The notes under the pieces: model-generated | The model's input: the letters and a program-made list of their open reading frames with translations, nothing else | The model's database searches: none | What the model was told of the DNA's origin: nothing | Made by a program: the position numbers and the translations under genes | Origin: Anaerolineales bacterium | GTDB taxonomy: Bacteria > Chloroflexota > Anaerolineae > Anaerolineales > UBA6663 | Assembly (NCBI GenBank): GCA_020845955.1 | Contig: JADLEU010000333.1 | Coordinates: forward strand, 1 to 51,693 | DNA: 51,693 nt | Reading direction: 5' to 3' | Part shown: in pieces, positions 1,345 through 35,383 of the stretch | Position numbering within the stretch: position 1 is the first letter of the stretch | How the letters are laid out: each line of letters begins with the position of its first letter

Positions 1345-2277
1345 ATGCGCAAGATCGCGTTCTTCTCCCAAAAAGGCGGCTGCGGCAAAACCACCACCTG
1401 CGTCAACATCGCTGCTGCCCTTGCCGGCCGCGGACGCCGCATCCTGATCCTGGACCTCGACAGCAACGCCTGCGCCTCGCGGACCTTTGGAGCGCTCGAA
1501 AGCCTGGAGAATTCCATCGCCGCCGCGCTGCTGGGCCTGCGCCCGCTGGTCGAGGTGGTGCACCGGACCGAGATTGACAACATCTGGCTCGTGCCCGGCG
1601 CGACCGATCTGCACAGCCTGGACGACGTCGAGGGCGTCCTCGATCCCAATCGCCGCGATGACTTGGGCCGGTTGAGCCCCGTGGCGCTCCAACTGGAGTT
1701 GGCCCAGAGCGATCTGGCCGGCTTCGACTACCTGCTCCTCGATTGCCCCGGTGGGCACCCCTTTATCGAGCACCTGGTGCTGCTGGCGTGCGACGAGGTC
1801 ATCATTCCCACCGGGCTGTCCATCTACGACCTGTATGCCGCCACGCCCACGATGCACCTGATCCTGATGGCGCGCGAAGCGCGCGGCGACGACAAACCCG
1901 AGTTCCTGGGCTTCTTGCCCAATGGGGCAGGGCGCCGGGGTGTCTCGCGGCGGGTGCAGAGCACGCTCGACCAGTACTCGCTCCCTTGCCTGCCGGCGGT
2001 CCGGCATTCCGACCTGATCAAAACGCTCGCAGGCATGCCGACCGTCCCGCAGCGCCTGATGGTGTTGGCCCGGCCCGATAGTGCCGTCACCGCCAGTTTC
2101 CAGCAGGTGGCCGCCAAAATTGACCATGACCCAGAGATAACTGGGCGCAGCGAGCCAGATAACGCCACGGCGGCTGGCCCCACAGGCGCGACGAGTGCTC
2201 CAGAGGATGCACAATCGTCACTGCCTATTGACTCCGAACACCTGGAAGTGGTACCATGCGCGCACTTGGGGATATGA
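1345..2277 (+). CDS. parA: ParA-family partition ATPase
   Basis: This 310-residue ATPase is of the ParA/MinD (SIMIBI) type. The deviant Walker A box KGGCGKTT is at residues 10-17. The A' region ILILDLDSNACAS follows, then a Walker B-like segment DYLLLDCPGG near residue 130. ParA proteins bind DNA non-specifically and position a ParB-bound replicon in the cell. The start is the ATG with AAGGAG 5 nt upstream; the longer open frame to 952 is not supported. The short N-terminus without a helix-turn-helix resembles the small (type Ib or chromosomal) ParA class. A ParB-like gene follows after one small membrane-protein gene, and a palindrome-operated promoter lies upstream. A MinD-like or other cargo-positioning role is possible, but the ParB neighbour favours partition. 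Confidence 0.88.
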   Translation: MRKIAFFSQKGGCGKTTTCVNIAAALAGRGRRILILDLDSNACASRTFGALESLENSIAAALLGLRPLVEVVHRTEIDNIWLVPGATDLHSLDDVEGVLDPNRRDDLGRLSPVALQLELAQSDLAGFDYLLLDCPGGHPFIEHLVLLACDEVIIPTGLSIYDLYAATPTMHLILMAREARGDDKPEFLGFLPNGAGRRGVSRRVQSTLDQYSLPCLPAVRHSDLIKTLAGMPTVPQRLMVLARPDSAVTASFQQVAAKIDHDPEITGRSEPDNATAAGPTGATSAPEDAQSSLPIDSEHLEVVPCAHLGI

Positions 2278-2316
2278 ACCCTAGTGCGCGGATGGGAGGA
2301 CTTGGGTAACGGTAAG

Positions 2317-2670
2317 ATGATCCGCCTGCGCTTTCTCGCCTGCCCGATGTTGGTGCTTTGGGTAGCCCTCGTTTTTGCTTCGTTCCTGGCCGGATTCCGG
2401 CTCGACGATACGCGCCCATTGGTGCGTGCCTATGGCGCCGCCCGACCTTGGCTGCTCACGCTGCCCGCCTGGCTGGCGCTGCCCCTTGGCCGCCCAATCA
2501 AACTCACCGGTGCCTGCCTGTTAGCGGCCATGACCTTGTTGACCTGGGAGCCCGCCCCCAGCATCATTTTCCAGCCGCTTGTCCTGCTTGGTCTGATCCT
2601 GGTCACCGCAAGCGCACAACGTTTCGCTGGGCCATCCCACTGGGAATTGAGAAACGACCATGACCGCTAA
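2317..2670 (+). CDS. Small membrane protein
   Basis: About 117 residues with three hydrophobic stretches: residues 4-27, a Trp/Leu-rich one near 42-55, and a long one near 62-98. It has no motif I recognise. A GTG at 2284 would add 11 residues; the ATG at 2317 puts the N-terminus at MIRLRFLACPMLVLW, a plausible first membrane segment, but the upstream GGAGGA is rather far (16 nt). It lies between parA and parB, and its end overlaps the parB start by 11 bp, so the three genes are probably co-translated. Membrane anchoring of the partition or pilus machinery is only a guess. Confidence 0.6.
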   Translation: MIRLRFLACPMLVLWVALVFASFLAGFRLDDTRPLVRAYGAARPWLLTLPAWLALPLGRPIKLTGACLLAAMTLLTWEPAPSIIFQPLVLLGLILVTASAQRFAGPSHWELRNDHDR

Positions 2671-3865
2671 CCTCCACCTGGGCGATGAGTCAAAGGTCCA
2701 TTTTTCGAACCCGTATGAGCGGCACCAGCTCAGGGGCCGGCGTGCGGCGCCTCCAACGCCAGGCGCCGAGAGCCAAGACCACTACCGGGAAGTGCCACTG
2801 GCGGAAATCGCCGGCCAGCGGTCCATGCAGACGCGTGCGGCCTTTGATCCGCAACACGATGATGAAGACCAGGCCCTGGTGGACAGCCTGGCCAGCGAAG
2901 GTCAGTTGGTGCCTGTCCTGCTGGCTCAATCGGCCGGCGGAGATTCGCCCCAGTATGTGCCGCTCGATGGGCACCGCCGCATTGCCGGCCTGCGGCATCT
3001 TGCCCGAGCCACCGTTCGCGCCTTCATCGTCCATGCGGCCACGCGGGAGTGCGACCTGATCTCCCTGACGGCCAACGTCCGCAAGAACCTGACACCGCTG
3101 GAGTTGGCTGAGGCGCTCGCGCGGTTGGAAAACGAGCACAAACTCACACCAGACGATATCGCCCGGCGGGTCGGTCTGACCCGCTCCTACGTTTGGAAGC
3201 TGCGCCGCCTGTCCACCGCGCCGCCGTCCGTGCGCGAGGCCGTGGCAGAGAAACGCATTACGGCCCACCTGGCCGATGCGCTGCTGCGGGCGCCTGAAGG
3301 GCACCAGCAAGCCGCGCTCGACCTGGCGGTCAACTGCCAGTTGTCGGAACCGCAGGTGGAACGGGTGCTGGAGGAGTGTGCCAAGAACAGCCTCACGCCC
3401 GATCAAGCCGCGCAGGCGCTGAAGCTGATCAGCGCCCCTTCAGTGGCTCCCTCACCCCCGGCGCCAGTTGCCGCCAAACAAGACAGGCCGAACGGCCAAA
3501 CGGTTGAGCTGACACAGGAAGCCATCGTGGCTTACATCCAGGACGTGTTTCCGGAGGTAACCGCAGAGCAGGCGGCCGGGGTAGCCGAGTTGGCGGTGGA
3601 CCACGACCAGCCGCGCAAGATCGTGAAGGCAGCCTGCCTCCTCTTACTCTCCAATTGGGAGCCTGTCCGGGCCATCGAAGGCGCGGAGCTTTCGGAGCGC
3701 GATCCGCAGGTTCGGCGCGTCGTGAACATGCTGGACCTGTGCCTTGAATTGGAGGCCATGCTCCGAAGCGAGACCAAGTCACGCGAGTGCGCCCCCATGC
3801 TGGTCGGTCTCATGCGCCGTCTTCTGGCCACCAAGCGGCTGGCACTCCAGTTCGAGAAGGAATAG
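2660..3865 (+). CDS. parB: ParB-family DNA-binding protein
   Basis: A 401-residue protein with the ParB layout. A ParB/Srx N-terminal domain (about 45-125) carries DGHRR at 103-107, the CTP-binding signature. A helix-turn-helix follows at about 161-183 (TPDDIARRVGLTRSYVWKLRRL). The linker near 255-285 is Pro/Ala-rich. The C-terminal helical half (about 290-400) is longer than a simple ParB dimerisation domain and may have its own role. ParB loads on parS as a CTP-gated clamp and is moved by ParA. The gene overlaps the upstream small membrane-protein gene by 11 bp. The 34-bp palindrome at 1011-1044 is the best candidate binding site in view. Confidence 0.87.
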   Translation: MTANLHLGDESKVHFSNPYERHQLRGRRAAPPTPGAESQDHYREVPLAEIAGQRSMQTRAAFDPQHDDEDQALVDSLASEGQLVPVLLAQSAGGDSPQYVPLDGHRRIAGLRHLARATVRAFIVHAATRECDLISLTANVRKNLTPLELAEALARLENEHKLTPDDIARRVGLTRSYVWKLRRLSTAPPSVREAVAEKRITAHLADALLRAPEGHQQAALDLAVNCQLSEPQVERVLEECAKNSLTPDQAAQALKLISAPSVAPSPPAPVAAKQDRPNGQTVELTQEAIVAYIQDVFPEVTAEQAAGVAELAVDHDQPRKIVKAACLLLLSNWEPVRAIEGAELSERDPQVRRVVNMLDLCLELEAMLRSETKSRECAPMLVGLMRRLLATKRLALQFEKE

Positions 3866-3875: not shown

Positions 3876-4847
3876 ATGCGCGCCACAGTTCGAGGTCTTG
3901 TGTTGGGTGTCTTGCTGATGGTGCCCATGGCCTGCGGGCGCGCGACAGAAACTCCGGGTCCGTCGCCCACAGAGGCCGCCACGCAGCCTGAACCACGCTC
4001 CACGGTTGGCGACACCCCGACCAAGGCCACGGCCACGGCTCTGGCCACGGCGACACACACACCCACACCCGTGCCTAGCCCCACCCCGACGTTCGACCCG
4101 ACACGCGGCGCTGCAATGACGCTGGAGGCTATCCGCGTGGCGGTGACGGCCAGCGGCGTGCCGGAAGGCTCGACAGAATTCGAGGCGCAAGTTGCCGCCA
4201 CGCGTTGCGCCCTGATCCCACCGCCGACATCAACGCCCATGCCGTGGCGCCTGACCCCCGAGCAGCCTTACCTGGTGAGCGCGAATTGCCTGGGAAGTGA
4301 ACTGCCGGGGCAGGGCGTTCGGCTCTGGCAAGACGGCGTCTGGGTTGAGGCCAATCAATATGCATTCGCGGATCCGGCCGAGCTTGAGGCTCCTCGCCAT
4401 AGCTACCTCGCCTATCTTGACCTCATGTCCTTTGCCGCTGCTCCCCCAGGAGACGATTTCGAGGCGAAGCTTGCCGAATACATGATGACAGACGGTGTGC
4501 TGCCTTCACCTGAGAGCTGCTTTGCGGGCGAAGTGTCCAGCCAGGTGTTGGAACTTGCCCGGCAGGACCTCTACGTTCGGTTGACGTTCAAACAGTCTAT
4601 CGAGTGGAATGCAGCTTACTACCTATATGTTTCGCCGGTAGATATCCAATTGGCATTGCCCTGGAGCACTGGCCCGGTGCTCCAGGAATTGCTCAGCATG
4701 GAGAGCAATACGCCTCTACGGCATGAATTTCTGGCTGGGCTCGCAGGTACGGCGCGGTTTCGCTACGACCCGGCGACCAGCCGCTGGTATCTGACTGACG
4801 ATGAGGGCGGTTACTACTGCCACGTGCTGCCCCTGTTTCTGAACTAG
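3876..4847 (+). CDS. Putative lipoprotein with Pro/Thr linker
   Basis: 323 residues. The N-terminus MRATVRGLVLGVLLMVPMAC has a charged start, a hydrophobic core and a lipobox-like PMAC, so lipid attachment at Cys20 is likely. A Thr/Pro/Ala-rich spacer (about 25-75, TPTPVPSPTPT) follows, as is common in Chloroflexota surface proteins, then a globular part without a recognised fold. Start: ATG with GGGAG 6 nt upstream; the longer frame from 3744 lies inside parB and is rejected. It opens the run of secreted and pilus genes, so a surface role beside the pilus is plausible, but the function is unknown. Confidence 0.7.
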   Translation: MRATVRGLVLGVLLMVPMACGRATETPGPSPTEAATQPEPRSTVGDTPTKATATALATATHTPTPVPSPTPTFDPTRGAAMTLEAIRVAVTASGVPEGSTEFEAQVAATRCALIPPPTSTPMPWRLTPEQPYLVSANCLGSELPGQGVRLWQDGVWVEANQYAFADPAELEAPRHSYLAYLDLMSFAAAPPGDDFEAKLAEYMMTDGVLPSPESCFAGEVSSQVLELARQDLYVRLTFKQSIEWNAAYYLYVSPVDIQLALPWSTGPVLQELLSMESNTPLRHEFLAGLAGTARFRYDPATSRWYLTDDEGGYYCHVLPLFLN

Positions 4848-4886
4848 GAAATGCCCATGCTGAACCATTTTGGACGAGGAGGGGCA

Positions 4887-5321
4887 ATGCCAAGGCATTT
4901 CATGTCAAACCGGGGACAAATTGCGGTCATGTTCGCGCTGCTGACTCCACTCTTGCTGGGCTTCGTAGGCTTAGTGCTCGATGGTGGGCTCGCCATGGTC
5001 CAGTATCGTCGCGGCCAGGTTGCTTTGGATAGCGCAGCTCTCGCCGCCGCGACTCAACTCGACAAAGACTTTTTTCGCACCGACAACCTTGTGCAGCTGA
5101 CGCCAACTGACGCCCACGTGTTGGCGATGACCTACGCTTCCGAAAACGGCGAGGGCCATGTCTCGATCACCGGGATCAGTGTTCATGGCACGCAAGTCGA
5201 TGTGTACGGTGTCGTGACCTCCCGCACGGTCTTTCTGCGCATCTTTGGCGTCAACCAGGTTCGTTTCGACCTGTCGGCGCGGGCTGAGCTCAAGTATGGG
5301 ATCACGGAGGAAGGTCAATGA
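4887..5321 (+). CDS. TadG/TadE-like pilus-assembly protein
   Basis: About 144 residues. The N-terminal part, RGQIAVMFALLTPLLLGFVGLVLDGG, is the single membrane segment typical of TadG/TadE-like proteins, followed by the characteristic RRGQVALDSAALAAAT helix. The rest is a short beta-rich domain. Start chosen at the ATG preceded by GAGGAGGGG; an in-frame ATG at 4851 has no such site. TadG-type proteins are minor components of the Flp/Tad pilus. The end overlaps the next gene as ATGA. Confidence 0.78.
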   Translation: MPRHFMSNRGQIAVMFALLTPLLLGFVGLVLDGGLAMVQYRRGQVALDSAALAAATQLDKDFFRTDNLVQLTPTDAHVLAMTYASENGEGHVSITGISVHGTQVDVYGVVTSRTVFLRIFGVNQVRFDLSARAELKYGITEEGQ

Positions 5322-6454
5322 GAGACACCTGGGGTACTCAGCCACGCTCGGCCAAGGCTGCCCGCTTCAGTTTCGCCCTGATCCTGGCGCTGAGCCTCCC
5401 TCTCGGGATGGCCCTGGTGCCCCGGCCTTTGACAGCGCAAGCCCAGACCGTGCCAACCGCCACGCCCACGCCAGACTGCCCGCCGGGCGAGTACTGGGAC
5501 CCGGTCATGGGGCGCTGCTGGCCCATTCGGCGTGACTGCCCGGCTGGCCTCATTGATGTAACCGGCGACGGCTCGGTGTGTGAAGCGATCGATCCCATTG
5601 CGTCTCCCGGCGCGTGCCTCGCCTGGCCCTCGGCCCCACTTCTGCTGGCGACCGGTTCCGTCGAATGCGCCCTGCCATACCAGACCGGCGGCCAACTGCT
5701 GCGGATCAGCGGCTCGGTCGGATGCCTGAACGTGAACCGGCGCCCCTATCCGCGGGCCCTGGTCAACCTCCCGGTCGAGTATCGTGTCACCGGGGTCATC
5801 CCGCCCAACCAGCTCTCCGGCATCCCGTTTGGCGACCCCGGCAGCTATCGCCTGTCGGCCAGCGATCCGTGGGCGACCGAAGGGCTCTTCCTGCACGAGC
5901 GCTATGGTGCTGTCACGTCCGATAGCTTTGGGCAGCCCGCCTTCAATACACGAGCACTGCTCGCCGGCGATGCCTACCCCTATCCCAGTGTCAACAACGT
6001 GCGGGCGCGCCTCGTCTTCAAGATGGCGACTGGGGCCGACGCCCTTACCTGGACGACGGCCGGGCGGCCGAGCGCGTTCTACGGCGGGCTAACAACCTGG
6101 GCTGAGACCACCTACACCTGGGCTAGCTTTCCCCTGCCGGGTAGCCTGCAGCACATCTCGTCGCTGGGACCCGCCCTGAATGGCGCCAACTCACTGCCGG
6201 CCTTCAAGGTGGCGGTTCAGTCCCGCTGGGATCTGTACCTGAACGCCGAGTGGGATGAGTACGCGGTCAACGACGCTCACAATTACGTCTGGGCGGATCA
6301 TCGCCAGATCGAAGTGCGCATCGCGCCCACCTACGTCAGTTATAGGGCGTGGGACAACCGCCAGCGCCCGGACAACGCGGCCGCGATCTACTGCAACGCA
6401 GCGAGTGGGTACCTCCCGGTGCCGGTGATTGAGGCGCAAACGGTGCTCCGATGA
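5318..6454 (+). CDS. Secreted protein of unknown function
   Basis: 378 residues. It has a long N-terminal signal-type sequence (basic stretch, then hydrophobic about 18-40, AQAQT cleavage-like site), a short TPTPT spacer and a Cys-containing segment (CPPGEYWDP...GRCWP, then DCPAG...C) resembling small disulfide-knotted modules. A Trp/Tyr-rich, probably beta-sheet domain makes up the rest. No catalytic motif was recognised. It is translationally coupled at both ends (ATGA overlaps), so it belongs to the pilus operon. It could be an adhesin or tip-like protein; that is inference from location only. Confidence 0.65.
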   Translation: MRDTWGTQPRSAKAARFSFALILALSLPLGMALVPRPLTAQAQTVPTATPTPDCPPGEYWDPVMGRCWPIRRDCPAGLIDVTGDGSVCEAIDPIASPGACLAWPSAPLLLATGSVECALPYQTGGQLLRISGSVGCLNVNRRPYPRALVNLPVEYRVTGVIPPNQLSGIPFGDPGSYRLSASDPWATEGLFLHERYGAVTSDSFGQPAFNTRALLAGDAYPYPSVNNVRARLVFKMATGADALTWTTAGRPSAFYGGLTTWAETTYTWASFPLPGSLQHISSLGPALNGANSLPAFKVAVQSRWDLYLNAEWDEYAVNDAHNYVWADHRQIEVRIAPTYVSYRAWDNRQRPDNAAAIYCNAASGYLPVPVIEAQTVLR

Positions 6455-6846
6455 CGAGCCTGACCGAAGATTACGCGCGGGCGATCGGCATGGCCGGGCT
6501 GAGCGACGAGCGGCAGACACGTTTGCTGACCCATCTGCTGAGCCTGAACGAGGCCCTGCCCAACGTCCCGCCCGTTTCGCCGGCGGTGGCCCGCACCGCC
6601 GCGGCGCTCATGGCCGCAGATCCTGACCGGCTGGCTGGACCGACGGCAGTCGCGCAGGCGGAGGCCGTCGCCCGGGTGAGCCAGATCGGGCCGGCACTGA
6701 TCCAGATCCAGGCCGGCGTGATGGCGCTCGAAGCAGTAGGCGACCTGCCTGAAGCGGCGGCCCATGGGCCGCACACCGCGGCGCTGCGCCGCATCTTGTG
6801 GCACCTGATCGGCGCCGCGTCAACCCTGTTGGACCGCCTCGGTTGA
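6451..6846 (+). CDS. Small all-helical cytoplasmic protein
   Basis: 131 residues, Ala/Leu-rich and probably all alpha-helical, with no signal peptide or membrane segment. No family recognised. It overlaps the preceding gene by 4 bp (ATGA) and lies 37 bp before cpaB. It may be a chaperone or assembly factor for the pilus, but nothing in the sequence proves this. Confidence 0.55.
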   Translation: MTSLTEDYARAIGMAGLSDERQTRLLTHLLSLNEALPNVPPVSPAVARTAAALMAADPDRLAGPTAVAQAEAVARVSQIGPALIQIQAGVMALEAVGDLPEAAAHGPHTAALRRILWHLIGAASTLLDRLG

Positions 6847-6883
6847 TGGTTAGCGTATCTAAGCATTGGAGAAGGAGCGTGGC

Positions 6884-7933
6884 ATGACGAGACGAAACTC
6901 AGCCGTGATTGTCCTGGCGATCATCCTGATGGTGGGCGGCTTCCTGGGGGTCCTGTTCGTAGGCCAACTCGTCAACCCGGCACCGGCGCCCGTGGCCGTC
7001 GCGGTGCTCGACATCCCGGCCGGCACGACGCTGAGCGCCGACATGATCGCGATTGACAGCGTCCATATGGACCCCAAGGTCCTGGCCGGTCTCGTGCTGG
7101 AAGGCGAACTGGCCAGCTACGTGGGGGGCGTGGTCGTCGAGCCGATCCATGCCTTTCAGCCGGTGCACAAGGCCGCCATCAGCGTCAGCGGAAACCCGGC
7201 GTCGGATCACCGGCTGGCCCTCGCGCTCTCCGATCCGAGTCTGGTGGCGATGGTCGTGCCCGTGACGGTTGGCACCGCGCCGGACGCGATCGTGGAAGGC
7301 GACTTCGTGGACCTGAACTTCGGGGTTGGCTCGACGACGGCTTTCGGCGGGATGTTGTCCACCGCGCCGACCGAGATGCCCTTTGCCGCGGGCTTCGGGG
7401 CTCTGGATCAGGCGGGCGGCGAACTGGCGGCCACGCCCGCGGTGAGCCCAACCCCAACCCCCGAGCCGCTCCTGATGCTGCCGGTCGCCAAGACCGTCGT
7501 GCGCAGCGCCCGAATCCTGAGCGTCATTCGAGAGGAACGCGCCGCCACAGTGCAGAGCGAGCCTGGCGCAGAAACCCGGACGGTCGCCGTCCAGGGCAAG
7601 ATCATCGCCCTGGTCGTCGCCATCCCACGCGAGGCGCAGGAACTGCTCGAGTTCGCCATTGACAACGGCACCGTGCGGGTCGCGCTGCTGTCGGCCCAGA
7701 TCGCGGACCATTCGGATGGCGCGGCGCCTTCCCTTGGCATGACCTGGAACGACCTGGTGGCCCTCGTGCGCATGGAGCGGGAGGCGGCGCTGGCCGCCGG
7801 CCTGCCCACCGATGTGTTCGGGCCGGGCGCGTACGCCGTCGAAGCGACGCGCAGCGCCGCCACCCAGGCCGCCCAGCCCCCGAGTCCCACCGCAACGCCG
7901 CTGCCGTTTCTGACAGCGACACCCACACCCTAA
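6884..7933 (+). CDS. cpaB: CpaB/RcpC-like pilus assembly protein (SAF domain)
   Basis: About 349 residues. One N-terminal membrane segment (about 7-28) is followed by a SAF domain: VAVAVLDIPAGTTLSADMI, then ASYVGGVVVEPIHAFQPV. A second domain at about 120-290 has the RcpC pattern (RILSVIRE..., KIIALVVAIPREAQELLEFA). Pro/Thr-rich tails occur near 190-205 and at the end. CpaB/RcpC links the inner-membrane Tad platform to the cell wall and pilus exit. The start is the ATG with GAAGGAG upstream; a TTG at 6866 is less likely. It heads the core Tad genes. Confidence 0.85.
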   Translation: MTRRNSAVIVLAIILMVGGFLGVLFVGQLVNPAPAPVAVAVLDIPAGTTLSADMIAIDSVHMDPKVLAGLVLEGELASYVGGVVVEPIHAFQPVHKAAISVSGNPASDHRLALALSDPSLVAMVVPVTVGTAPDAIVEGDFVDLNFGVGSTTAFGGMLSTAPTEMPFAAGFGALDQAGGELAATPAVSPTPTPEPLLMLPVAKTVVRSARILSVIREERAATVQSEPGAETRTVAVQGKIIALVVAIPREAQELLEFAIDNGTVRVALLSAQIADHSDGAAPSLGMTWNDLVALVRMEREAALAAGLPTDVFGPGAYAVEATRSAATQAAQPPSPTATPLPFLTATPTP

Positions 7934-10834: not shown

Positions 10835-11886
10835 GCTTTATCAATCCGCTCAATGTGCTGCTGGCAGCACTGGTGGGGGCGGGGGTGTTTGCCCTGACCG
10901 TCGCCCTGCTGTCCCAGCGGCCCGTGAACCTGTCCGAGACTGAGAAGCTCTTTGGCGCGGGCATGATCGATGCTCCCTGGCACGTGCGGCTCCAGCGCCA
11001 GCTCGACCTGGCGCGCATTGATCTGACGGTCGCGACGTTCCTGCCGATGCTGGTCATGCTGTCGCTCCTGGGCGGCCTGGCAGCCTTCCTGGTGTCGGGC
11101 GCCTGGCTAGCCGGCGTGCTCGGCACGGTGCTGGGCGGATCGGGCTACTGGCTCTACCTGTCGCAGAAAGCCGACCAGGCGCTGGAAACCTACGATGAAG
11201 AATTGCCGCAAGTGCTGGCGCGCCTGGTCGCGGGCGCTCGGCTCGGCAACAGCCTGCCGGTGGCCGCCGAGCACGTGGCGCAGTTTGGCCCACTGCTCTG
11301 CCGCGAGGATTGGGCCTATATCGCCGCGCAGCTGCGCGCGAACGCGCCGGCGGAACAAGTCTTCAAGGTGATCGGCCTGCGGCGAGGCAGCCAGCTCCTC
11401 AACAACATCCTGGAACTGCTCCTACTGCAGCAGGAACGGCGCACGCCCCTCAGCCAGGCGCTGCCGCTCATCCAGGAGTCGCTGGAAGACCGGGTGCGCA
11501 CCATCCGCCGAGCCCGTACCAAGATGAAGGGGCCGATCCGGGAGCTGTGGATCGTGTGCGCCACCCCGTTTGCCGCGGTGCTGGTCTTGCGACTGATGTC
11601 GCCCGAGTTCACCGCCATCTACAGCACGCCCCTCGGCCAGGTGCTCTTGCTCACCAGCTGGGGCATGGCCCTGGCCGCCTTCGTCCTGGCGCATCGCTCC
11701 TTCAGCCAGGCGCTGCGGCGCGAGACCGATTTCTCCGGCGGGCTGAAGCCCGCGCCGCGGCCCAAGTTGCCGCCCACTGGCCACGCCGCGGGTGGGCCAT
11801 CGCGCCGGGCGCCCGTTTCGCTGGCCGAGCTGACGGAACAAGCCAAGGCCGATCCCATCCACGAAGGGAGCGCGCCCCATGCCTGA
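10831..11886 (+). CDS. tadB: TadB-like pilus platform protein
   Basis: 351 residues with the T2SSF/TadB layout: one hydrophobic segment at the N-terminus, a pair near 70-110, a cytoplasmic helical domain (about 115-230, DEELPQVLARLVAGARLGNSLPVAAEHV) and a C-terminal pair of membrane segments near 245-290. A basic/Pro tail follows. TadB and TadC form the inner-membrane platform on which CpaF acts. It overlaps tadA (ATGA) and tadC (8 bp). Confidence 0.85.
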   Translation: MSFINPLNVLLAALVGAGVFALTVALLSQRPVNLSETEKLFGAGMIDAPWHVRLQRQLDLARIDLTVATFLPMLVMLSLLGGLAAFLVSGAWLAGVLGTVLGGSGYWLYLSQKADQALETYDEELPQVLARLVAGARLGNSLPVAAEHVAQFGPLLCREDWAYIAAQLRANAPAEQVFKVIGLRRGSQLLNNILELLLLQQERRTPLSQALPLIQESLEDRVRTIRRARTKMKGPIRELWIVCATPFAAVLVLRLMSPEFTAIYSTPLGQVLLLTSWGMALAAFVLAHRSFSQALRRETDFSGGLKPAPRPKLPPTGHAAGGPSRRAPVSLAELTEQAKADPIHEGSAPHA

Positions 11887-12823: not shown

Positions 12824-12974
12824 CGGCATGAGGACAGGCTGAGGACAGCGTGGGCGCGAGCGCTCCTACACTGAGGTGGTCGAATAGGGACGCATACAGA
12901 GGAGGTGCTATGGCGTGACCACAAGGGACGAAACGCGCTCTCTTCATTGGACTGGTCTTGCAAGGAGGTTACCC
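12824..12974 (+). promoter_or_regulatory. Leader of the Flp pilin gene
   Basis: This AT-poor gap contains two strong ribosome sites in a row: GAGGAGG at 12899-12905 and AAGGAGG at 12962-12968. The first precedes a two-codon frame (ATG GCG TGA at 12910) and an in-frame GTG at 12915 that would add 20 residues to the pilin. The second precedes the preferred pilin ATG. A separate promoter is expected because pilin is needed in excess, but I do not see convincing hexamers. Confidence 0.4.
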
Positions 12975-28162: not shown

Positions 28163-28169
28163 GCGAACG

Positions 28170-29387
28170 ATGGATCCGGCCCAACACGCGACCCTGGACG
28201 AGATCAAGGCCCGGCACCCGCTGCAGGATGTGGCACCGCGCTACGTGGCGGCGCTTCGGCATACGGGCAGCCACCTGGTGGGCCGTTGCCCGTTCCACGA
28301 CGACCAGCATCCGAGCTTCACCGTCCATCTGCCGACCCAGACCTGGCACTGTTACGCGGCATCGTGCGACCTGGGCGGCGACGTGATTGACCTGGTCGGG
28401 CACGCTCGTTTTGGCCGTGCCTGGAACAGCCATGATAAGGCGATGTTCAAGGAAGCCCTGGCCGACCTCGGCGGCAATAACCTGCCGCCCCTGCGCCAGC
28501 CAGTGCCGGCGGCCTGGCATCGCCAGCAGGCCTGGCGGCCGGTCGAGCTCAGCCCGCACGTTCAGATGCTGCTGCACACGGCGGCGCGCCTGTACCACAC
28601 GACGCTGCTCGCGATGGGGCCAGGACCCGGCACGCCCTATGACTACCTGCGCCGGCGAGGCTTCAGCCATGCCACCATCCGCCAGGAAGCGATTGGTTAC
28701 GCCATCGGCGATCTGCTGGCGCCGGCCTTGCTGGCCTGCGGCCTGCCGCTTGACGCCGCCGCGGAGGCCCACTTGCTGGATACCGAGCGGAGAAACCGCG
28801 AGTTCATGATTGGCCGGGTGGTGTTCGTCGAGCGTGACCGCAGCGGCCGCGTCCTGCACCTGATCGGGCGGGCCTTTGCGCCGACGCTCGGCCCGCAAGC
28901 GCCGAAGTACTTGAGCCTGAAGGAGATGGCCAAGCCGCTATACGGCTATGCCCGCCTCGACCGGCGCGAGAGCAATCAGCCGGTCCTGCTGGTTGAAAGC
29001 CCGCCGGACGCCCTCACCGCGCGGCAGTGGGGGTTCGACGCGCTTGCCAACATCGGCACGCGCATGAAGGGCGAGCACGCGGCGCTCCTGGCGCGTCTCA
29101 AGCGCCCACTGGTGATTGTGCCCCATAACGACGGCGGGCCGGGCCTGGCGGCGGCGGAGCGCTGGCGCGAACTGATCGGCCGCGGCACGCTGGCCGAATT
29201 GCCGGACGGCGTGAAGGACCTCAACGAGATGGCCGCGCGCTCCGATGACGAACGCGAGTTTCTGAAGCTCATGCGTGCGCTGGGCTATGAGCGCCGTCCT
29301 CCGCAGTGGGCGCGGGGGCAGAGCAGCCGGCCGATCTACACCCAGGCGATGGCCTGGGCCGAGACCTTGTTGGCGAGCCAGCTCTGA
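28170..29387 (+). CDS. CHC2-type DNA primase
   Basis: 405 residues. The N-terminal zinc domain is C40-P-F-H43, then C61 and C66: the third and fourth ligands are four residues apart (CYAASC) rather than two as in DnaG. A Toprim-like domain at about 270-350 has VLLVESPPDALTARQWG (acidic Glu) and VIVPHNDGGPGLAAA (acidic Asp region). No DnaB-binding C-terminal domain of DnaG length is present. It would make primers for replication or for conversion of transferred single strands. The ATG start is preferred to TTG 28152. Confidence 0.82.
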   Translation: MDPAQHATLDEIKARHPLQDVAPRYVAALRHTGSHLVGRCPFHDDQHPSFTVHLPTQTWHCYAASCDLGGDVIDLVGHARFGRAWNSHDKAMFKEALADLGGNNLPPLRQPVPAAWHRQQAWRPVELSPHVQMLLHTAARLYHTTLLAMGPGPGTPYDYLRRRGFSHATIRQEAIGYAIGDLLAPALLACGLPLDAAAEAHLLDTERRNREFMIGRVVFVERDRSGRVLHLIGRAFAPTLGPQAPKYLSLKEMAKPLYGYARLDRRESNQPVLLVESPPDALTARQWGFDALANIGTRMKGEHAALLARLKRPLVIVPHNDGGPGLAAAERWRELIGRGTLAELPDGVKDLNEMAARSDDEREFLKLMRALGYERRPPQWARGQSSRPIYTQAMAWAETLLASQL

Positions 29388-29412
29388 TGCAAGCAAAGTG
29401 CAAGTGAGCGAA

Positions 29413-30741
29413 ATGGAAAGCGGTTGGATGGTACTGGTGGTCGCCGGTCTCTTCGTCGGAGCGGTGCTCTGGGGCGTGTGGCGCGCGAGCCAATGGCTCC
29501 TGCAGCGCGAGCGCGCCTGGGGCGATGCGCTGGGCGCGGTGATGGCGGCCACTGTGATGCGCCGCGACCGGGAGCAGACGCTGGGTGTCATCCTCGAATG
29601 CAGTCTCGAGGCGTTGGGCGGCCTGGGCGGGACGCTGCACCTGGTCCGGCCTGGGGCGCCGTGTTACTTGCTGGCGCATGCTGTGAATGTCGTGCAGTTG
29701 GACTGGCTGGCGGCGCTTCCCGCCGACGACCTCCTGTTGTGCCGTTCGCTGGCCGCAACCGGACCCGCCCTACTGCCCGTGGCAGAGGTCGCGGTGCGCT
29801 GGCGCGCCCTGGCCTCTGGCCGTGACCACGTGCTGGTGGGTATGTGCCTTGGGCGGCAGGCCCTGCTTGTGCTGGCCTGGCCGGAAGCCCATGAGGCCGA
29901 GCGCCAACTGCCGGCGCTGCAGACTATCCAACGCTATGGCGAGCAGGTGTTGACCGAATTTGCAGAGATTGACGCCCGGGCAGCGGATATTCAGGCGCTG
30001 AGTGCGAGCCTCGATCACCAAGAACGGCTGACCCGCACCGCCGCGCACGACCTGGCCAACAAGCTGGCGGCGGCCCAGTCGCTCCTGGACCTGGCCGGCA
30101 GCAGTGGGTGCCTGCAGGGCGAAGAAGGTGAGCTCGTCCAGCAAGCGCAGGAGCAGCTCAGCCTCAGCCAGCCGCTGGTGGACGAGCTCAGCGAGCCCGG
30201 CCGGGAAATTGAGACCGAGCCGCTCGAGGTCGAGGAGTTGGCGCGGCTGGCCGCCGCCATGCTGGCGCGCCGGCGGCGCGAGCGCAGTGTAGCGTTTTCA
30301 CTGGAGGTCGCGCCGGGTCTGCCGGCGGTGTGGGGCGAGCGCCTGGCGGTGCTCCGCGTCCTGGACAACTTGCTGTCCAACGCGCTCAAGCACAATCGGC
30401 AGCAACTCGACCTGCGCATCTGGCTTCGGGTTTGGGCCGAAAGTGAGCGTGTGGTCTTCGAGGTCGGCGACAACGGCGTCGGTATCCCGGGTGAGCAGAT
30501 GAAACAGCTCTTCGAGTTCGGCTTTCGGGCCGACGGCACCGGCAGGGTGAAGGGGCACGGCCTGGGCCTCTGGTCGAGCCGGCGTCTGATCGAGGCACTG
30601 GGCGGGTGGGTTTGGGCCGAGAGCACGCCTGGTGTGGCGACACGCTTCTGCTTTGCACTGGCCGCCGTCACAGTGCAGCCTGACGTGGATGTGAACGCTT
30701 CGCGGGCAGGCTCGGTCGTGCGCGCGGAGATGAGCCGGTGA
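29413..30741 (+). CDS. Sensor histidine kinase
   Basis: About 442 residues. One membrane segment at 5-25, a GAF-like domain (about 45-190), then a phosphoacceptor region with TAAHDLANKLAAAQSLLD (His near 212) and a HATPase domain: N box DNLLSNALKHN, G1 VGDNGVGIP, G2 GHGLGLWSSRRLIEALGG. The H box is of the less common HDLxNxL type. The start is the ATG; GTG 29404 is possible. It ends one base into the next gene. It is encoded inside the transfer/replication block, together with another kinase and two regulators. Confidence 0.85.
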   Translation: MESGWMVLVVAGLFVGAVLWGVWRASQWLLQRERAWGDALGAVMAATVMRRDREQTLGVILECSLEALGGLGGTLHLVRPGAPCYLLAHAVNVVQLDWLAALPADDLLLCRSLAATGPALLPVAEVAVRWRALASGRDHVLVGMCLGRQALLVLAWPEAHEAERQLPALQTIQRYGEQVLTEFAEIDARAADIQALSASLDHQERLTRTAAHDLANKLAAAQSLLDLAGSSGCLQGEEGELVQQAQEQLSLSQPLVDELSEPGREIETEPLEVEELARLAAAMLARRRRERSVAFSLEVAPGLPAVWGERLAVLRVLDNLLSNALKHNRQQLDLRIWLRVWAESERVVFEVGDNGVGIPGEQMKQLFEFGFRADGTGRVKGHGLGLWSSRRLIEALGGWVWAESTPGVATRFCFALAAVTVQPDVDVNASRAGSVVRAEMSR

Positions 30742-31943
30742 TGGACTCGAGCTGGATGGACATCACCGTGGATGAGCTACGCACCTACGCGCGCTGCCCG
30801 CTCGAGTGGTTCTGGGAGCGGCGGTCGGGGGTGCCACGGCCGCAGACGATCGCGGCGCTTGTGCCTGCCGCGATCCGCGCCGGGCTGGACTTCTACTACG
30901 ACGGGCATGCGCCCGACCTCGCCGCTGCGGTTGGGTTGGTCTGGCAGGATTGGTGCGAAGGGTGGGGAGATGCGGCCCTGGCCGGCGACCTGGCCCGCTA
31001 CGCCGTTGGGCGGGCCAAGATCCTGAACCTGTTCGCGGCTGGCCACGTGCAGCGGCCGGGCGGGGGGCGCTACGTGGTGCCGGAGATGACCAACGAGTAC
31101 CGGCAGCGTATGCACGCCGCCGGCCTGACCAAGCTGGGCCGCCAGCTCGACGAGTTCGCCCGGACCCACGCGCTGCTCGCGGCCGACGAGGACGACCGCC
31201 CGGGCAGCGCCCTGGGTGATGCCTTCGCCGAATGTCTGGCAGCGGCGGAGCGGTGTGCGCCCGATATCCCCGCCCGCGAGATCGTGCTCGGCCGGCAGGT
31301 GCCCTACCAGGTGGAAGGACTGGGGACCGTGCGGCTGATCGGCCAGGCCGATCTGCTGCTGCCCGACGCCGAAGCGTCCGAGGCGGTGGTGGTGGAAGTT
31401 CACGATTTCGACTCCGCGCCGTGGATACGGGTGGGGATCGCCGGGCGCGACCTGCGCGTGATTGCTGCTTCACTGGCGAAGCCCACTGAGACAACGCCTA
31501 TAGCTGCGTGGGAACGGGTATCGCAGGTGGTCTACCGGCACTGGCCCACCGGGCAAGTCTACCGCTTTCGAGAGACGAACAGCGGCCATCTTCTGGGGCT
31601 GGTGGCCTCGATTGCCCGCGGGATGCGCCAGCAGGTCGTGGTCCCACGCGCCGTGACCGGCTACGAGCACTGCCGGGCCTGCGCCTATCGTCCCGAGTGC
31701 TGGGACGGTGCGAATTGGGACACACTGCCGCTGATTGATGCCGGCCTGCTGGGCGCGGCCGAGGCGCTGCGAACCACCATGCACGGGTTGCGCGGCAGCC
31801 TGGCCGGCGATCACGCGGTAGTGCAGCGCATGCACCGGTTCCTGGACACTCTGGGGGCGGCCGTGGCGGAGGCAGAACCTGCCGCAATCTTGGGCGCGAG
31901 CCGGCAAGTGCTGGAGGAGACCGATGGCCATAGCCGCGGATGA
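30741..31943 (+). CDS. PD-(D/E)XK-like nuclease with Fe-S cysteine set
   Basis: 400 residues. The N-terminal ELRTYARCPLEWFWERR holds the first Cys (C19), and C-terminal EHCRACAYRPECWDG (about 308-322) holds three more (CxxC-x5-C), the arrangement of Fe-S cluster nucleases of the Cas4/AddB type. The presumed core GQADLLLPD...VVVEVHDFDS has Asp and Glu but a His (ExH) where the family has Lys (ExK), so activity is uncertain. It could trim or bind DNA ends during transfer. It overlaps the upstream kinase gene by 1 bp and the next kinase gene by 20 bp, which is an odd place for a nuclease. Confidence 0.68.
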   Translation: MDSSWMDITVDELRTYARCPLEWFWERRSGVPRPQTIAALVPAAIRAGLDFYYDGHAPDLAAAVGLVWQDWCEGWGDAALAGDLARYAVGRAKILNLFAAGHVQRPGGGRYVVPEMTNEYRQRMHAAGLTKLGRQLDEFARTHALLAADEDDRPGSALGDAFAECLAAAERCAPDIPAREIVLGRQVPYQVEGLGTVRLIGQADLLLPDAEASEAVVVEVHDFDSAPWIRVGIAGRDLRVIAASLAKPTETTPIAAWERVSQVVYRHWPTGQVYRFRETNSGHLLGLVASIARGMRQQVVVPRAVTGYEHCRACAYRPECWDGANWDTLPLIDAGLLGAAEALRTTMHGLRGSLAGDHAVVQRMHRFLDTLGAAVAEAEPAAILGASRQVLEETDGHSRG

Positions 31944-32688
31944 AACGAATGCCCTAGACGCGCTCCGCCAGGAACACACTGCCTTCTTGCGGGTGGTCGC
32001 GCACGCCCTGCGGACGCCGCTGCAATCCCTCCAGGGCTTCGCGGAAATGCTGGAACCTGGCCTCCCGCCCGCCCAGGTCGAGCACTACCTGAGCTTCATC
32101 AAGCGCGACACCGCCCACCTGGCGGCGGTGGTGGACGACCTGTGCCTGCGGCACGAGCTGGATCGGGGGGCGTTGGTGCTGTTCCCGGCGGCCATTGATG
32201 TGGGCACCCTCTTGGCGGAGCTTGCCGGCAGCTTCGAGGCCCGTCTGCCGGACTGTGTGGTCGGCTTCGAGTACGCCGACGACCTTCCGGCCGCCTTCGC
32301 CGACCCGGACCGGCTGCTCCACATTTTGGGCACGCTCCTCCTCAACGCCGAGCGTTGCCGTCCAAGTGCGCGTGGCCCCGGCTGGCTGACGATCAACGCG
32401 CGGCACGAACCGGTTGCGCGGCAGGTCGTGTTTGTCGTGGATGACGATGGGCCGCGCGTGCCTGCCGAGTATGCCGCCGCGCTCTTTGAGCCATTTCCGA
32501 AGCTGCCGGCGGCGCTCGGGCGGCCACGGCATGGCATCGGCCTGGGGCTGTACGCGGCGCGTGAGGTGGCCCGGCAGATGGGCGGGGATTTGTGCCTGAC
32601 ACTCGGGGCGGAATCGTCGAGGCGGCAATTTGGCAACACTTTCGTTCTGCATGTGCCGGCGTTCGCCGGGCAGGTGGGCCATGCCTGA
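31924..32688 (+). CDS. Small soluble histidine kinase
   Basis: 254 residues without membrane or obvious sensor domain. HisKA box VVAHALRTPLQSLQGF (His27) near the start and a HATPase with N box LGTLLLNAERC, G1 VDDDGPRVP and G2 GIGLGLYAAREVARQMGG. It probably acts as a cytoplasmic kinase fed by another protein, or with an N-terminal sensing partner. It overlaps the nuclease gene by 20 bp and the following regulator gene by 8 bp. Confidence 0.82.
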   Translation: MAIAADETNALDALRQEHTAFLRVVAHALRTPLQSLQGFAEMLEPGLPPAQVEHYLSFIKRDTAHLAAVVDDLCLRHELDRGALVLFPAAIDVGTLLAELAGSFEARLPDCVVGFEYADDLPAAFADPDRLLHILGTLLLNAERCRPSARGPGWLTINARHEPVARQVVFVVDDDGPRVPAEYAAALFEPFPKLPAALGRPRHGIGLGLYAAREVARQMGGDLCLTLGAESSRRQFGNTFVLHVPAFAGQVGHA

Positions 32689-33064
32689 TGTCTTGGTCGT
32701 GGAAGACGATTTCGCCCTGGGCGAGTTCGTGCGCCGGGCGCTTGAGCGGGATGGCATCCCCTTTCGGCTGGCGCAGGATGGCGGTGAAGCGTTGAGCCTG
32801 GCCGCCGAGCGCTGGCCGGCGGTGGTGCTGCTCGATCTAACCCTGCCCGGCACACTCGACGGTTGGCAGGTGTGGGACGCGCTGCTCGCCCAGGCGGGTG
32901 GTCAGACCCTGCGCGTCATCTTGTTTGCGGCCGAGCTGGACAGTCATGACCGACAACAGGCCCACAGACGGGCTGCCTGGGCGGTATTGCGCAAGCCGGT
33001 GAGCCGTGTGCAATTGGTTGATCGGGTGCGCCGGGCACTGGCAGAGAGTTCCACCCATGGCTGA
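32681..33064 (+). CDS. Single-domain response regulator
   Basis: 127 residues: one receiver domain only. Acidic pair D9-D10, phosphoacceptor D52 in VVLLDLTLPG, and the conserved Lys in LRKPVSR near 108. With no output domain it should act through protein contact or a phosphorelay. It overlaps its neighbours on both sides by 8 bp. Confidence 0.85.
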   Translation: MPDVLVVEDDFALGEFVRRALERDGIPFRLAQDGGEALSLAAERWPAVVLLDLTLPGTLDGWQVWDALLAQAGGQTLRVILFAAELDSHDRQQAHRRAAWAVLRKPVSRVQLVDRVRRALAESSTHG

Positions 33065-33797
33065 GCCGACTGCACTGAGCCAGCGGATTCTGCTGGTCGA
33101 GGACGAGGTGGCTCTGTTGGTCTTCTACCGCAAGGTGTTGGAAGAGGCCGGTTTCCACGTTCGCGCAGCACGCAGCGGGCCAGAGGCGCTGGCCGCCTTT
33201 ACCGAATTCAATCCTGATCTGGTACTGCTCGACCTGATGCTCCTGGGCGACATGGACGGCTTCGATGTGCTGACGGGGCTCCGTGCCCGCAGCCCGGTGC
33301 GCATCATCATCCTGACTGGCCAGGCGGGCGATGCCCGGGTGGTGCGCGGGCTGAACCTGGGCGCCGACAACTACCTGGTGAAGCCCATCTCGGGCGCGCA
33401 GCTTGTGGCGCGCGTGCGAGCACAGGTCCGCCGGACGCCGGGCGGGAATCTGGCGCCTGATCGCAGCCGCCGGCTGTTCTGCTACGGTGACCTGGTCATT
33501 GACCTGGGTCGGAGCCAGATGCTGCGCCGCGGCCGGCGCGTGGTTTTAGGCGATGTCGAGCGCCGCCTACTAGAACGGCTGCTGCAGACGCCGGACCGGT
33601 TGGTAGGCTACGCCGAGTTGATGGAGGCGGGCTGGGGGGTGATCCAACCGAATATCCACCGCGAGGAAATCCACCAGGTGCTCAACATGGCTTATCGCCT
33701 GCGGCGCAAGTTGCGCCAGGCGGAGGGGCGAGAGGTGCTCGAGACTGTGACCAGTGCCGGCCTGGTCATCGCGGCGCCGGACGAGGTCAGAGATTAA
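33057..33797 (+). CDS. OmpR/PhoB-type response regulator
   Basis: 246 residues. Receiver domain 1-125 (ILLVEDE, phosphoacceptor D59 in LVLLDLMLLG, Lys in YLVKPISG), then a winged-helix DNA-binding domain (about 145-246; GDLVIDLGRSQMLRRGRRVVLGDVERRLLERLLQ, last strand ETVTSAGLVIAAP). It probably regulates the element's own transcription; the target sites are unknown. It overlaps the preceding regulator by 8 bp and is followed 3 bp later by the prepilin peptidase gene. Confidence 0.86.
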   Translation: MAEPTALSQRILLVEDEVALLVFYRKVLEEAGFHVRAARSGPEALAAFTEFNPDLVLLDLMLLGDMDGFDVLTGLRARSPVRIIILTGQAGDARVVRGLNLGADNYLVKPISGAQLVARVRAQVRRTPGGNLAPDRSRRLFCYGDLVIDLGRSQMLRRGRRVVLGDVERRLLERLLQTPDRLVGYAELMEAGWGVIQPNIHREEIHQVLNMAYRLRRKLRQAEGREVLETVTSAGLVIAAPDEVRD

Positions 33798-33800: not shown

Positions 33801-34340
33801 ATGACAACACCGCAAACCCAGTTGTTTGAGTGGGCCGTTCGCATTGCCTTCACGGGCCTGCTGGTGAGCCTGGCCGCGTATGACTGGCGCTATCGGCGGG
33901 TGCCCAACGGGGTCGTGCAGCCGCTGCTGCTCGGGAGCGTTGTTCTCCTGATCTTGCGGCTGGGGTGGGGCTATCTCAGCCCGGCCGCATTGGCAGTAGC
34001 TGGAGGCACGTGGGCAGCCTGCCTTATTCTGTGGTGGCTGCACGTGTTCGGTGGCGGCGACATGAAGCTCGTCATTGCTGTGATCGCGCTTGCACCCGAG
34101 TTGCAGCTCGTCTATTTGCTCTTGGCGGCCGTGCTGGGCGGCTTGCTGCTCAACCTGGCCCTGGGCGAAGGGCCAAGCGGCCTCCGACGGCTGGCGGCGC
34201 TGCTGGTCACCGCCAGCCAGGGTGCGCTTCCCACGCGTGCCGAGATCACCGCCGCCTACGAGGCGCGCGGCCGGCCGATCACGTTCGCGTTCTGCTTGGC
34301 CGGTATCGTGTACTTGTGGCTGTTCTGGGCGGGGTTGTAG
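33801..34340 (+). CDS. Prepilin peptidase, A24 family (TadV/CpaA-like)
   Basis: 179 residues with about five hydrophobic helices. The two catalytic Asp residues of A24 peptidases are visible: D28 in AAYDWRYRRVPN and D87 in FGGGDMKLV. It is short and lacks the N-terminal methylase domain, as in TadV/CpaA. It would process the Flp pilin at 12975 and the TadE-like pseudopilins. Its position 20 kb from the pilin, behind the regulator gene, ties the two ends of the block together as one functional unit. Confidence 0.87.
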   Translation: MTTPQTQLFEWAVRIAFTGLLVSLAAYDWRYRRVPNGVVQPLLLGSVVLLILRLGWGYLSPAALAVAGGTWAACLILWWLHVFGGGDMKLVIAVIALAPELQLVYLLLAAVLGGLLLNLALGEGPSGLRRLAALLVTASQGALPTRAEITAAYEARGRPITFAFCLAGIVYLWLFWAGL

Positions 34341-34342
34341 CC

Positions 34343-35383
34343 ATGCCTGAGATACCGCCCACAATCCGGCTGCCGAACACCGAGGCGTTTCGCCCCCAGA
34401 ACCTCTGGGAAACGGTGCAGGCTTTTAACCAGCGGCTGCGCTCGGGCAACCTGGAAAACTATCGGCCCGCGCCGCTGGGGTTCCCGCAGCTCGACGCCTG
34501 CCTGGGCGGGGGCCTACGCGCCGAAGACCTTTGCCTCGTCGGGGGAATGCAGAACGTGGGCAAGACCATTTTCGTGCTGCAAGTCGCGCGCAACCTGGCC
34601 GCGGCCGGCGAGGTGCTGCCCATCGTGGTGTGCTATGAGCATGGCCCGGAGACCTTACTCCACCGTCTATTGTGCCTGGAATCCGTAGACGATTCCGATA
34701 GCGCCAATCCCCAACGTGTAACCCGGGACGCCATCGAGAAGGCCGTCCTGGGCTACTACGATGCGCATCTGGATCCCGAAGCGCGGCGGCGACTGGACCT
34801 GGATTGGCTACTGGCGAATGTGCCGGGCGTAGACCAGGCCTGGTACCGCCTGCGGGATTACTTGTGGCGACTCTGGTTGGTTGCTGGTGACGGTCTCGAA
34901 ACCACGCTGCCTGTGCTGCACGAGTACGTGCGCATGGCCCAGCACCTGGGCTTCGCGCGCGTGATGCTGATCGTGGACTATGCCCAGCGCGTTCCGCTGG
35001 CTCCCCGCGCCGACGGAGCGCAGCTCAGCGAGCTGCAGCGCATTGACCAAGTGATGCGCGGGCTGAAAGGCATCGCCATGAAGCTCGGCGTGCCGGTGAT
35101 GGCGGTCGCGGCCGCGGACGAGGCGGCGCTGCGACGGCAGCGGGTACGTTTCGAGGACTTATGGGGGCCAGCGACGGTGCAGTATGAGCCTGATGTGGCC
35201 ATAATCCTCAATCGAGGCACGGTAGACAACTTGACCGGGAACAGGTGGGTGGGAATCGCTGTGGAGAAGAACCGACACGGAATGAGCGGTGTGGGATTTC
35301 GGTATCAGCAACATAGCGCCCACTTTGCGTTTTCGGCCTGGGGCGAGGACGTAACACCGCCGAGCAGCACGCAGTGCCAATAG
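34343..35383 (+). CDS. DnaB-like helicase/RecA-fold ATPase
   Basis: 346 residues, equal to the C-terminal motor of DnaB without its N-terminal domain. Walker A GGMQNVGKT at 67-75, VVCYEHGPETLLHRLL (the helicase Glu and Arg region), Walker B MLIVDYAQRVPL near 207-217, then AMKLGVPVMAVAAAD, VQYEPDVAIILNRG and EKNRHG as in DnaB motifs. It fits the replicative helicase partner of the CHC2 primase encoded at 28170. It starts 2 bp after the prepilin peptidase stop and is the last gene of the long + strand run. Confidence 0.78.
   Translation: MPEIPPTIRLPNTEAFRPQNLWETVQAFNQRLRSGNLENYRPAPLGFPQLDACLGGGLRAEDLCLVGGMQNVGKTIFVLQVARNLAAAGEVLPIVVCYEHGPETLLHRLLCLESVDDSDSANPQRVTRDAIEKAVLGYYDAHLDPEARRRLDLDWLLANVPGVDQAWYRLRDYLWRLWLVAGDGLETTLPVLHEYVRMAQHLGFARVMLIVDYAQRVPLAPRADGAQLSELQRIDQVMRGLKGIAMKLGVPVMAVAAADEAALRRQRVRFEDLWGPATVQYEPDVAIILNRGTVDNLTGNRWVGIAVEKNRHGMSGVGFRYQQHSAHFAFSAWGEDVTPPSSTQCQ

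Follow-up and report, generated by a model that had tools for sequence, protein, structure and literature searches.

A Tad pilus locus combined with a monoderm-type secretion system in a putative integrative conjugative element of Anaerolineales

The DNA analysed here, referred to as the window, is the complete contig JADLEU010000333.1 (C333; 51,693 bases), which belongs to a 6.06-Mb metagenome-assembled genome (MAG) of an Anaerolineales bacterium (GCA_020845955.1). It carries a block of co-oriented genes, from a ParA gene at position 1345 to a DnaB-like helicase gene ending at 35383, in which a Tad pilus locus is followed by a monoderm-type type IV secretion system (T4SS; PrgI, VirB4, M23, VirD4) and then by a Replic_Relax gene. 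We consider it likely that an integrative conjugative element of Anaerolineales has this block as its core and uses its Tad pilus to make mating contact for the T4SS. The window contains part of one copy of the element. Gene content, gene order, recurrence, shared history and purifying selection are observed in the sequences, as are, in sister copies, an integrase and flanking chromosomal genes; from these we infer DNA transfer, the mating role of the pilus, the identity of the nicking protein and the joint action of pilus and channel. In Chloroflexota the Tad pilus, with its CpaF ATPase, has been passed on jointly with VirB4, VirD4 and Replic_Relax, and this combination is also found on Streptomyces-type plasmids. 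If the pilus indeed makes the mating contact, this would explain how such elements find recipients, and it would be a new role for Tad pili.

Gene content of the block

Gene identities are based on Pfam searches of the open reading frames (ORFs) of the window, and gene starts are approximate. All named block genes lie on the plus strand. Numerous stop/start overlaps occur between them; overlaps had been noted in a first-pass annotation of this DNA, and the main gene identities proposed there (Tad genes, PrgI, VirB4, M23 and VirD4) were borne out. The annotation also described the genes as one unbroken run; minus-strand genes at 18320-18886 and 22742-23626 interrupt the block and are its only breaks.

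The genes that define a Tad/Flp (type IVc) locus are found together: CpaB (6866-7933; SAF, 1e-4, with collinear homologues), CpaE/TadZ (7947-9353; AAA_31, 3e-14), the CpaF/TadA ATPase (9350-10834; T2SSE, 3e-25), TadB (10831-11886; T2SSF, 2e-4, with collinear homologues), TadC (11879-12823; T2SSF, 5e-8), an Flp prepilin (12915-13160), three TadE-like minor pilins and an A24 prepilin peptidase corresponding to TadV (33801-34340; 2e-11). The peptidase gene follows the response regulator genes, where the annotation had placed it. The prepilin matches Flp_Fap with 5e-5, which is under the curated Pfam cut-off, and carries the motif EAG/LSATEYAILF; both the pilin motif (EAG/LSATEY) and the GGGD motif of the peptidase are intact. 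The TadE-like pilins are encoded at 13223-13651 (TadE, 4e-4), 13638-14138 (TadE, 5e-10, at residues 154-195 of ORF 13248-14138, within which the start is approximate) and 14135-14569 (TadE, 2e-8). CpaF is closer to CpaF structures (1e-52) than to VirB11 (5e-33). Upstream of CpaB lie genes for a TadG-like protein (4851-5321; Tad PF13400, 2.7e-9), a secreted protein without assigned function (5318-6454) and a small protein, also unassigned, with 57-92% identity to the other copies (6451-6846). No secretin domain was found by Pfam in any ORF searched; a secretin is a trait of diderm Tad loci only, and its absence is expected in monoderms.

The T4SS part follows directly and includes two components of a monoderm conjugative T4SS, VirB4 (19030-21942; P-loop_TraG, 9e-12, AAA_10, 3e-11, and 1e-31 to the solved VirB4 structure 4ag5) and the coupling protein VirD4 (23617-26346; TrwB_AAD_bind, 5e-6, and DUF87, with the Walker A sequence GKTQHGKS). 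A PrgI/VirB3-like protein (17817-18311; PrgI, 4e-9) and an M23 peptidase, a cell-wall hydrolase (21949-22647; 1e-25), were recognized by Pfam as well, and the TrbL/VirB6-like component, a polytopic protein of 759 amino acids (15534-17813), is assigned by topology and position alone, with a homologue in the Chloroflexota genome G083 and no Pfam match. It is preceded by a small multi-span membrane protein in the VirB2/VirB6 position (14580-15089; frame and homologues, no Pfam match), for which the overlapping ORF 14633-15112 was rejected as being in the wrong frame, and by a second small membrane protein (15109-15534) that has a counterpart at the same position in G083. The earlier labels 'VirB2-like' and 'TrbL-like' agree with position, size and membrane topology, but not with any family match. 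No VirB8/TcpC-like protein was detected by Pfam among the ORFs searched, where several unassigned membrane and secreted proteins remain. Immediately downstream of VirD4 the block encodes a Replic_Relax protein (26324-28162; PF13814, 1.4e-7), a candidate relaxase-like protein that takes the same position 3' of VirD4 in other loci. Further genes for DNA processing encode a DnaG-like primase (28152-29387; Zn_ribbon_DnaG, 2e-14) and the DnaB-like helicase (34343-35383; DnaB_C, 3e-18).

Recurrence in Chloroflexota

Besides the window, the same MAG contains two more VirB4 copies, on contigs C398 (92% identity) and C245 (81%), and the related genome G001 (JADZEK01) contains a further two (89% and 79%). 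Named relatives that share this VirB4 are MAGs of Anaerolineales, in keeping with the placement of the host in this order of Chloroflexota. The five copies are collinear from ParA through the response regulator genes. Four of them stay collinear past the A24 peptidase and DnaB genes to a squalene-synthase-like gene, the fifth (C193) stopping at a contig edge. The annotation had let the block end with the helicase gene at 35383, which is too early: sharing extends to the squalene-synthase-like gene at 41244 in three of the four other copies. To the left of ParA, four copies have a module in common that encodes a UvrD-like helicase, a DUF6908 protein and a DUF6094 methyltransferase/helicase; the window contig begins just short of it.

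The order also recurs outside this group, as the annotation had proposed to check. In G083, which represents a different family within the order, ParA, ParB, CpaB, CpaE, CpaF, TadB, TadC and TadE/TadG-like genes are arranged as in the window, and the locus continues in window order with two small membrane proteins, a TrbL-like protein, PrgI, VirB4 and M23, all at 25-40% identity. Since the order repeats in five copies and in another family at such distance, it is, as judged by sequence comparison, far beyond chance. In further Chloroflexota families Tad genes are found closely 5' of VirB4 on the same strand (G507, G352, G169, G298) or 16-39 kb before it, again on the same strand (G176, G231, G223, G479, G162, G209). 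A Replic_Relax gene stands immediately behind VirD4 in G352, G169, G507, G231, G162, G479 and G209, and none was found in 14 control genomes.

Linkage was counted in 40 Chloroflexota genomes that were selected on VirB4 matches, blind to Tad, and that contain 51 VirB4 loci. In 21 of these loci (15 genomes) a same-strand CpaF precedes VirB4 by at most 45 kb, none lies downstream, and one is on the other strand; uniform placement would give 0.77. The value of 21 is a lower bound, because VirB4 lies close to the end of several contigs. CpaF and VirB4 are often, but not always, paired.

A few loci (G110, contigs C6 and C10; G015, C1; G117, C14; regions L081-L083 and L097) have CpaB-CpaE-CpaF genes near a VirB4/VirD4-like pair. 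TadB, TadC and TadE were not found there and unrelated genes intervene. They were not accepted as full composites, and CpaF may be used there in a reduced or otherwise different way. Of these, the loci of G110 and G015 were retained in the linkage count.

These results bear on the trivial explanation that two unrelated machines became adjacent by chance insertion or mis-assembly. The window is a MAG contig and the genome is fragmented, which would allow for such an artefact, but the same junction recurs on five contigs from two MAGs and in many other genomes, and the pairing is found on complete plasmids (see below). On this recurrence the explanation was rejected as extremely improbable.

Common history of the pilus and secretion genes

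CpaF and VirB4 trees contain matching clades, and inside the group of the window the branching is nearly identical. Pairwise VirB4 and CpaF distances are strongly correlated (Mantel r 0.98 for 19 loci and 0.96 for 11 thinned loci; p 1e-4), and omission of the G110 and G015 loci leaves the thinned value at 0.96. The T4SS-linked CpaF sequences are separated from most stand-alone CpaF sequences of the same genomes, with 3 label changes on the tree as compared to 13 in shuffles; the exceptions come from G231 (a second Tad copy) and G298 (a fragment). When actinobacterial plasmids were added, 2 label changes were found versus 16, in a tree in which the G231 copy was relabelled, rows including the G298 fragment and the long C122 row were omitted, and the deepest branches are weak.

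Synonymous divergence (dS) between C333 and C398 is 0.26-0.58 (PrgI 0.82, VirD4 0.69) from position 5318, the start of the unassigned secreted protein gene, into VirD4, and about 0.95-2.0 on either side. Because dS is low across this tract and higher on both flanks, a single exchange (a recombination tract of some 20 kb) most likely carried the Tad and T4SS genes together. The ratio of non-synonymous to synonymous divergence for the same pair is 0.04-0.2 in both halves, indicating purifying selection. The annotation had suggested a single element and had named separate histories of the two halves as the observation that would speak against it; trees, Mantel tests, CpaF grouping and the dS tract point the other way, and the shared history supports a single element.

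Sister copies and the integrated state

In C398 a tyrosine integrase gene adjoins a tRNA-Leu gene, and merB and a gene resembling mercuric reductase come next. The C159 copy has ordinary chromosomal flanks, with an integrase, a tRNA-Val gene and an RNase-J-like gene on its right side (the RNase J label derives from the start of the sequence). With the integrase at tRNA-Leu in C398 and the integrase, tRNA-Val and chromosomal flanks in C159, the gene arrangement of the sister copies is that of an integrative conjugative element. Integrase and integrated state are seen in these sister copies; the contig of the window itself yielded no integrase. The integrase, tRNA-Leu and mer genes of C398 lie at 12306-16277 of region L030, which equals 52306-56277 of C398, and this copy may carry mercury resistance.

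Related plasmids

The same genes are combined on plasmids. Candidatus Chlorohelix allophototropha (Chloroflexota) has a finished plasmid of 241 kb that encodes VirB4, with PrgI and a Tad locus about 40 kb off. An Embleya linear plasmid carries PrgI, VirB4, VirD4 and Replic_Relax followed by genes from CpaB to TadG, and a 69-kb Streptomyces linear plasmid encodes on one strand VirB4, a large TrbL-sized protein, a C40 peptidase, VirD4, Replic_Relax, CpaB, CpaF, TadB, TadC, TadE and TadG (gene names from the record, with VirB4 and VirD4 identified by position and ATPase annotation). Among the best 60 VirB4 plasmids of the Streptomyces type, CpaF is listed in 46, in all cases on the same strand and downstream, and in 41 within 30 kb. 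These actinobacterial plasmids thus resemble the window in being VirB4-VirD4-Replic_Relax-Tad composites on one strand, but the T4SS comes first and a large LysM/BTAD protein is encoded behind TadG, whereas the Chloroflexota loci have Tad first; the pairing is retained in both orders. In the G298, Embleya, Streptomyces, Chlorohelix and Cutibacterium acnes loci (L088 6980-10456, L139 38604-41455, L141 21054-24341, L103 19287-24638) a large LysM/BTAD protein is encoded after TadE/TadG; it is missing from the window. In Arthrobacter pYA7-1b a Tad locus is present and no T4SS gene is listed within the 37 kb shown. VirB4 relatives were not found in viral contigs, and interpretation of the block as a phage feature was rejected.

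According to PLSDB typing, 160 of 203 plasmids with a related VirB4 are non-mobilizable, 43 are mobilizable and none is conjugative. If the proposed function is correct, the plasmids typed as non-mobilizable may move by conjugation. Examples with VirB4 and Tad that MOB-suite labels non-mobilizable are NZ_CP108445, NZ_CP108778, NC_021086 and NZ_CP128402, the first two of which also encode VirD4 and Replic_Relax. NZ_CP108445 is a 69-kb linear plasmid of Streptomyces sp. NBC_01276 that carries the composite.

A linear plasmid of C. acnes has a tad locus together with VirB4, FtsK and TcpC-like genes; its pili were read as adhesins, with conjugation as a possibility (PMC5696575). It resembles the window in having Tad and VirB4 on one plasmid, and its CpaF groups with that of the Streptomyces plasmids, but both its T4SS block and its Tad block are divergent and have only distant similarity to those of the window. 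The interpretation of this Tad locus as a colonisation factor (PMC5696575) raises the question whether the Anaerolineales element is conjugative while its pilus is a passenger adhesin for surface attachment or biofilm formation, placed beside the T4SS by chance or for co-regulation and not needed for mating. Many loci of this T4SS family without a nearby CpaF would fit such a role. Long common descent, exchange as one unit and fixed orientation in two phyla argue against it, as does the retention of Tad in every close copy while other cargo varies, and we regard the adhesin explanation as rather unlikely.

Proposed mechanism

In the mechanism that we favour, the A24 peptidase of the element would mature the Flp and TadE pilins, from which CpaF with TadB and TadC would assemble Tad pili. 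These pili would reach and hold the recipient cell; the pilus is probably what Tad-T4SS elements use for holding the recipient during transfer. The M23 enzyme could then open the wall, the Replic_Relax protein, helicase and primase would prepare the element DNA, and the T4SS (TrbL/VirB6-like protein, PrgI/VirB3 and VirB4) with the VirD4 coupling protein would pass it. ParA/ParB, the kinases and an ImmR/ImmA-like pair may control upkeep and induction; such a pair would fit induction control.

Several observations weigh against conjugation with pilus-mediated contact. A canonical HUH relaxase was not found, Replic_Relax being only a candidate relaxase, and the AlphaFold2 model of this protein was unusable (predicted local distance difference test score 35) and was not used; a PDB search with a Replic_Relax profile gave no relative. 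In G083 the VirD4 gene is on a separate contig and no Replic_Relax gene was found in the genome. Near the tRNA-Leu and tRNA-Val genes no convincing att direct repeats were detected, the similarity being limited to partial tRNA sequences. Contamination of the MAG that contains three of the copies is 4.4%, and these copies may not belong to one cell. Twenty-nine Rhodococcus plasmids match VirB4, but the organisms named as carrying this CpaF do not include Rhodococcus. Finally, 30 of the 51 loci have no CpaF within 45 kb, some on contigs that are cut short and some on long ones that truly lack it, as against the 21 paired loci.

A more far-reaching possibility, which we consider doubtful, is that of one chimeric machine in which CpaF would stand in for VirB11 as well, and in which the DNA would cross the wall partly by way of the Tad platform or filament; the elements would then represent a phylum-spanning class of conjugation systems missed by mobility typing. 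A 2025 review describes Gram-positive T4SSs as lacking a VirB11-family ATPase and mentions neither Tad pili nor Chloroflexota (PMC12857230).

Relation to known systems

Pseudomonas aeruginosa, the host of the integrative element PAPI-1, is a diderm, and the PAPI-1 pilus is not known to belong to the Tad type. PAPI-1 has its own type IV pilus, which is essential for transfer, and a few T4SS genes, with VirB4 and VirD4 as the only clear homologues, and is regarded as a chimeric conjugative system (PMC12857230). Compared by description, the window differs from PAPI-1 by its Tad (type IVc) pilus, its origin from a phylum taken to be mostly monoderm and its PrgI, TrbL-like, M23 and Replic_Relax genes. 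The IncI plasmids R64 and TP114 use a thin type IV pilus to promote mating contact in liquid (PMC9045228, PMC12857230). These plasmids of Enterobacteria differ in having a type IVb pilus with a shufflon adhesin and a Dot/Icm-like T4SS, encoded in two separate clusters. As in both systems, genes for a type IV pilus and for a T4SS are combined here within a single mobile element. The view of the annotation that Tad pili and T4SSs are known as separate machines is therefore at odds with the precedents of IncI and PAPI-1 (PMC12857230) and of the C. acnes tad/VirB4 plasmid (PMC5696575).

The Tad-T4SS pairing as a class was not described in the full-text literature searched, a scope outside which many subscription papers and bioRxiv preprints fall, and no paper describing the pairing in Streptomyces and Embleya was found. 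Because of the precedents and of this lack of a class description, what appears to be new here is a widespread Tad variant; conjugation assisted by type IV pili is itself already known.

In Myxococcus, the Kil system similarly couples a Tad pilus functionally with a secretion machine when cells touch (PMC12075869), but it serves predation, its partner is a needleless system resembling type III secretion, and DNA-processing genes are lacking. With Kil as precedent (PMC12075869), the composite could be a contact-dependent machine that delivers proteins instead of DNA, as would be compatible with the G083 locus, which contains neither VirD4 nor Replic_Relax. We consider protein delivery improbable in view of the accompanying VirD4, Replic_Relax, primase, helicase, ParAB and integrase genes, the presence of VirD4 and Replic_Relax in most loci, and the occurrence of the composite on complete plasmids.

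Accessory genes and cargo

The block starts with a ParA-family ATPase (1345-2277; AAA_31, 2.8e-25), present in the five copies, for which the start at 1345 given by the annotation is the best one, with GGAG immediately upstream. A ParB-like protein (2660-3865; HTH_ParB, 6e-16), also found in the five copies and in G083, and a secreted lipoprotein-like protein without assigned function (3876-4847; assigned from sequence, in five copies) precede the TadG-like gene. Between primase and prepilin peptidase the block encodes a histidine kinase (29398-30741, likely start; HATPase_c, 1e-22), a PD-(D/E)XK (Cas4-like) nuclease (30738-31943; PDDEXK_1, 2e-6, and a weak cas4 match), a second histidine kinase (31924-32688; HATPase_c, HisKA), a single-domain response regulator (32681-33064; Response_reg, 1e-17) and an OmpR-type response regulator (33057-33797; Response_reg, 3e-24, Trans_reg_C).

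Both minus-strand inserts, a DUF4367-like gene between PrgI and VirB4 (18320-18886; 0.0026, below cut-off) and an alpha/beta hydrolase gene between M23 and VirD4 (22742-23626; Abhydrolase_1, 6e-20), are missing from C398. Extra DNA occurs at other operon joints in sister copies, at TadC/Flp in C398 and at Flp/TadE in C159.

Downstream of the helicase gene, also on the plus strand, follow an ImmR-like helix-turn-helix regulator (38346-38744; weak HTH_3, in shared copies) and an ImmA-like metallopeptidase (38789-39331; HELSH motif). This pair of an XRE-like regulator and a HELSH metallopeptidase lies near the element core, and in G231 (C75, C3) it is found beside CpaB, the metallopeptidase homologue adjoining Tad; we take it to resemble ImmR/ImmA of ICEBs1. 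The next genes, encoding a membrane protein and a squalene/phytoene-synthase-like protein (39335-41244, plus strand; SQS_PSY, 6e-66), are shared passengers. The synthase-like gene (40321-41244) has the same place in four copies (window, C398, C245 and C159) and no obvious role in transfer.

Found in the window copy only is a gene for a ParB-domain-like protein adjoining a D12 adenine methyltransferase gene (35541-37957). Unmatched in the other copies as well, except for a distant HsdR in C159, is the right end of the window, where the minus strand (42610-51466) encodes a type I restriction HsdR-like protein, DUF4365 and LA2681-like HEPN proteins, which resemble defence cargo of this copy.

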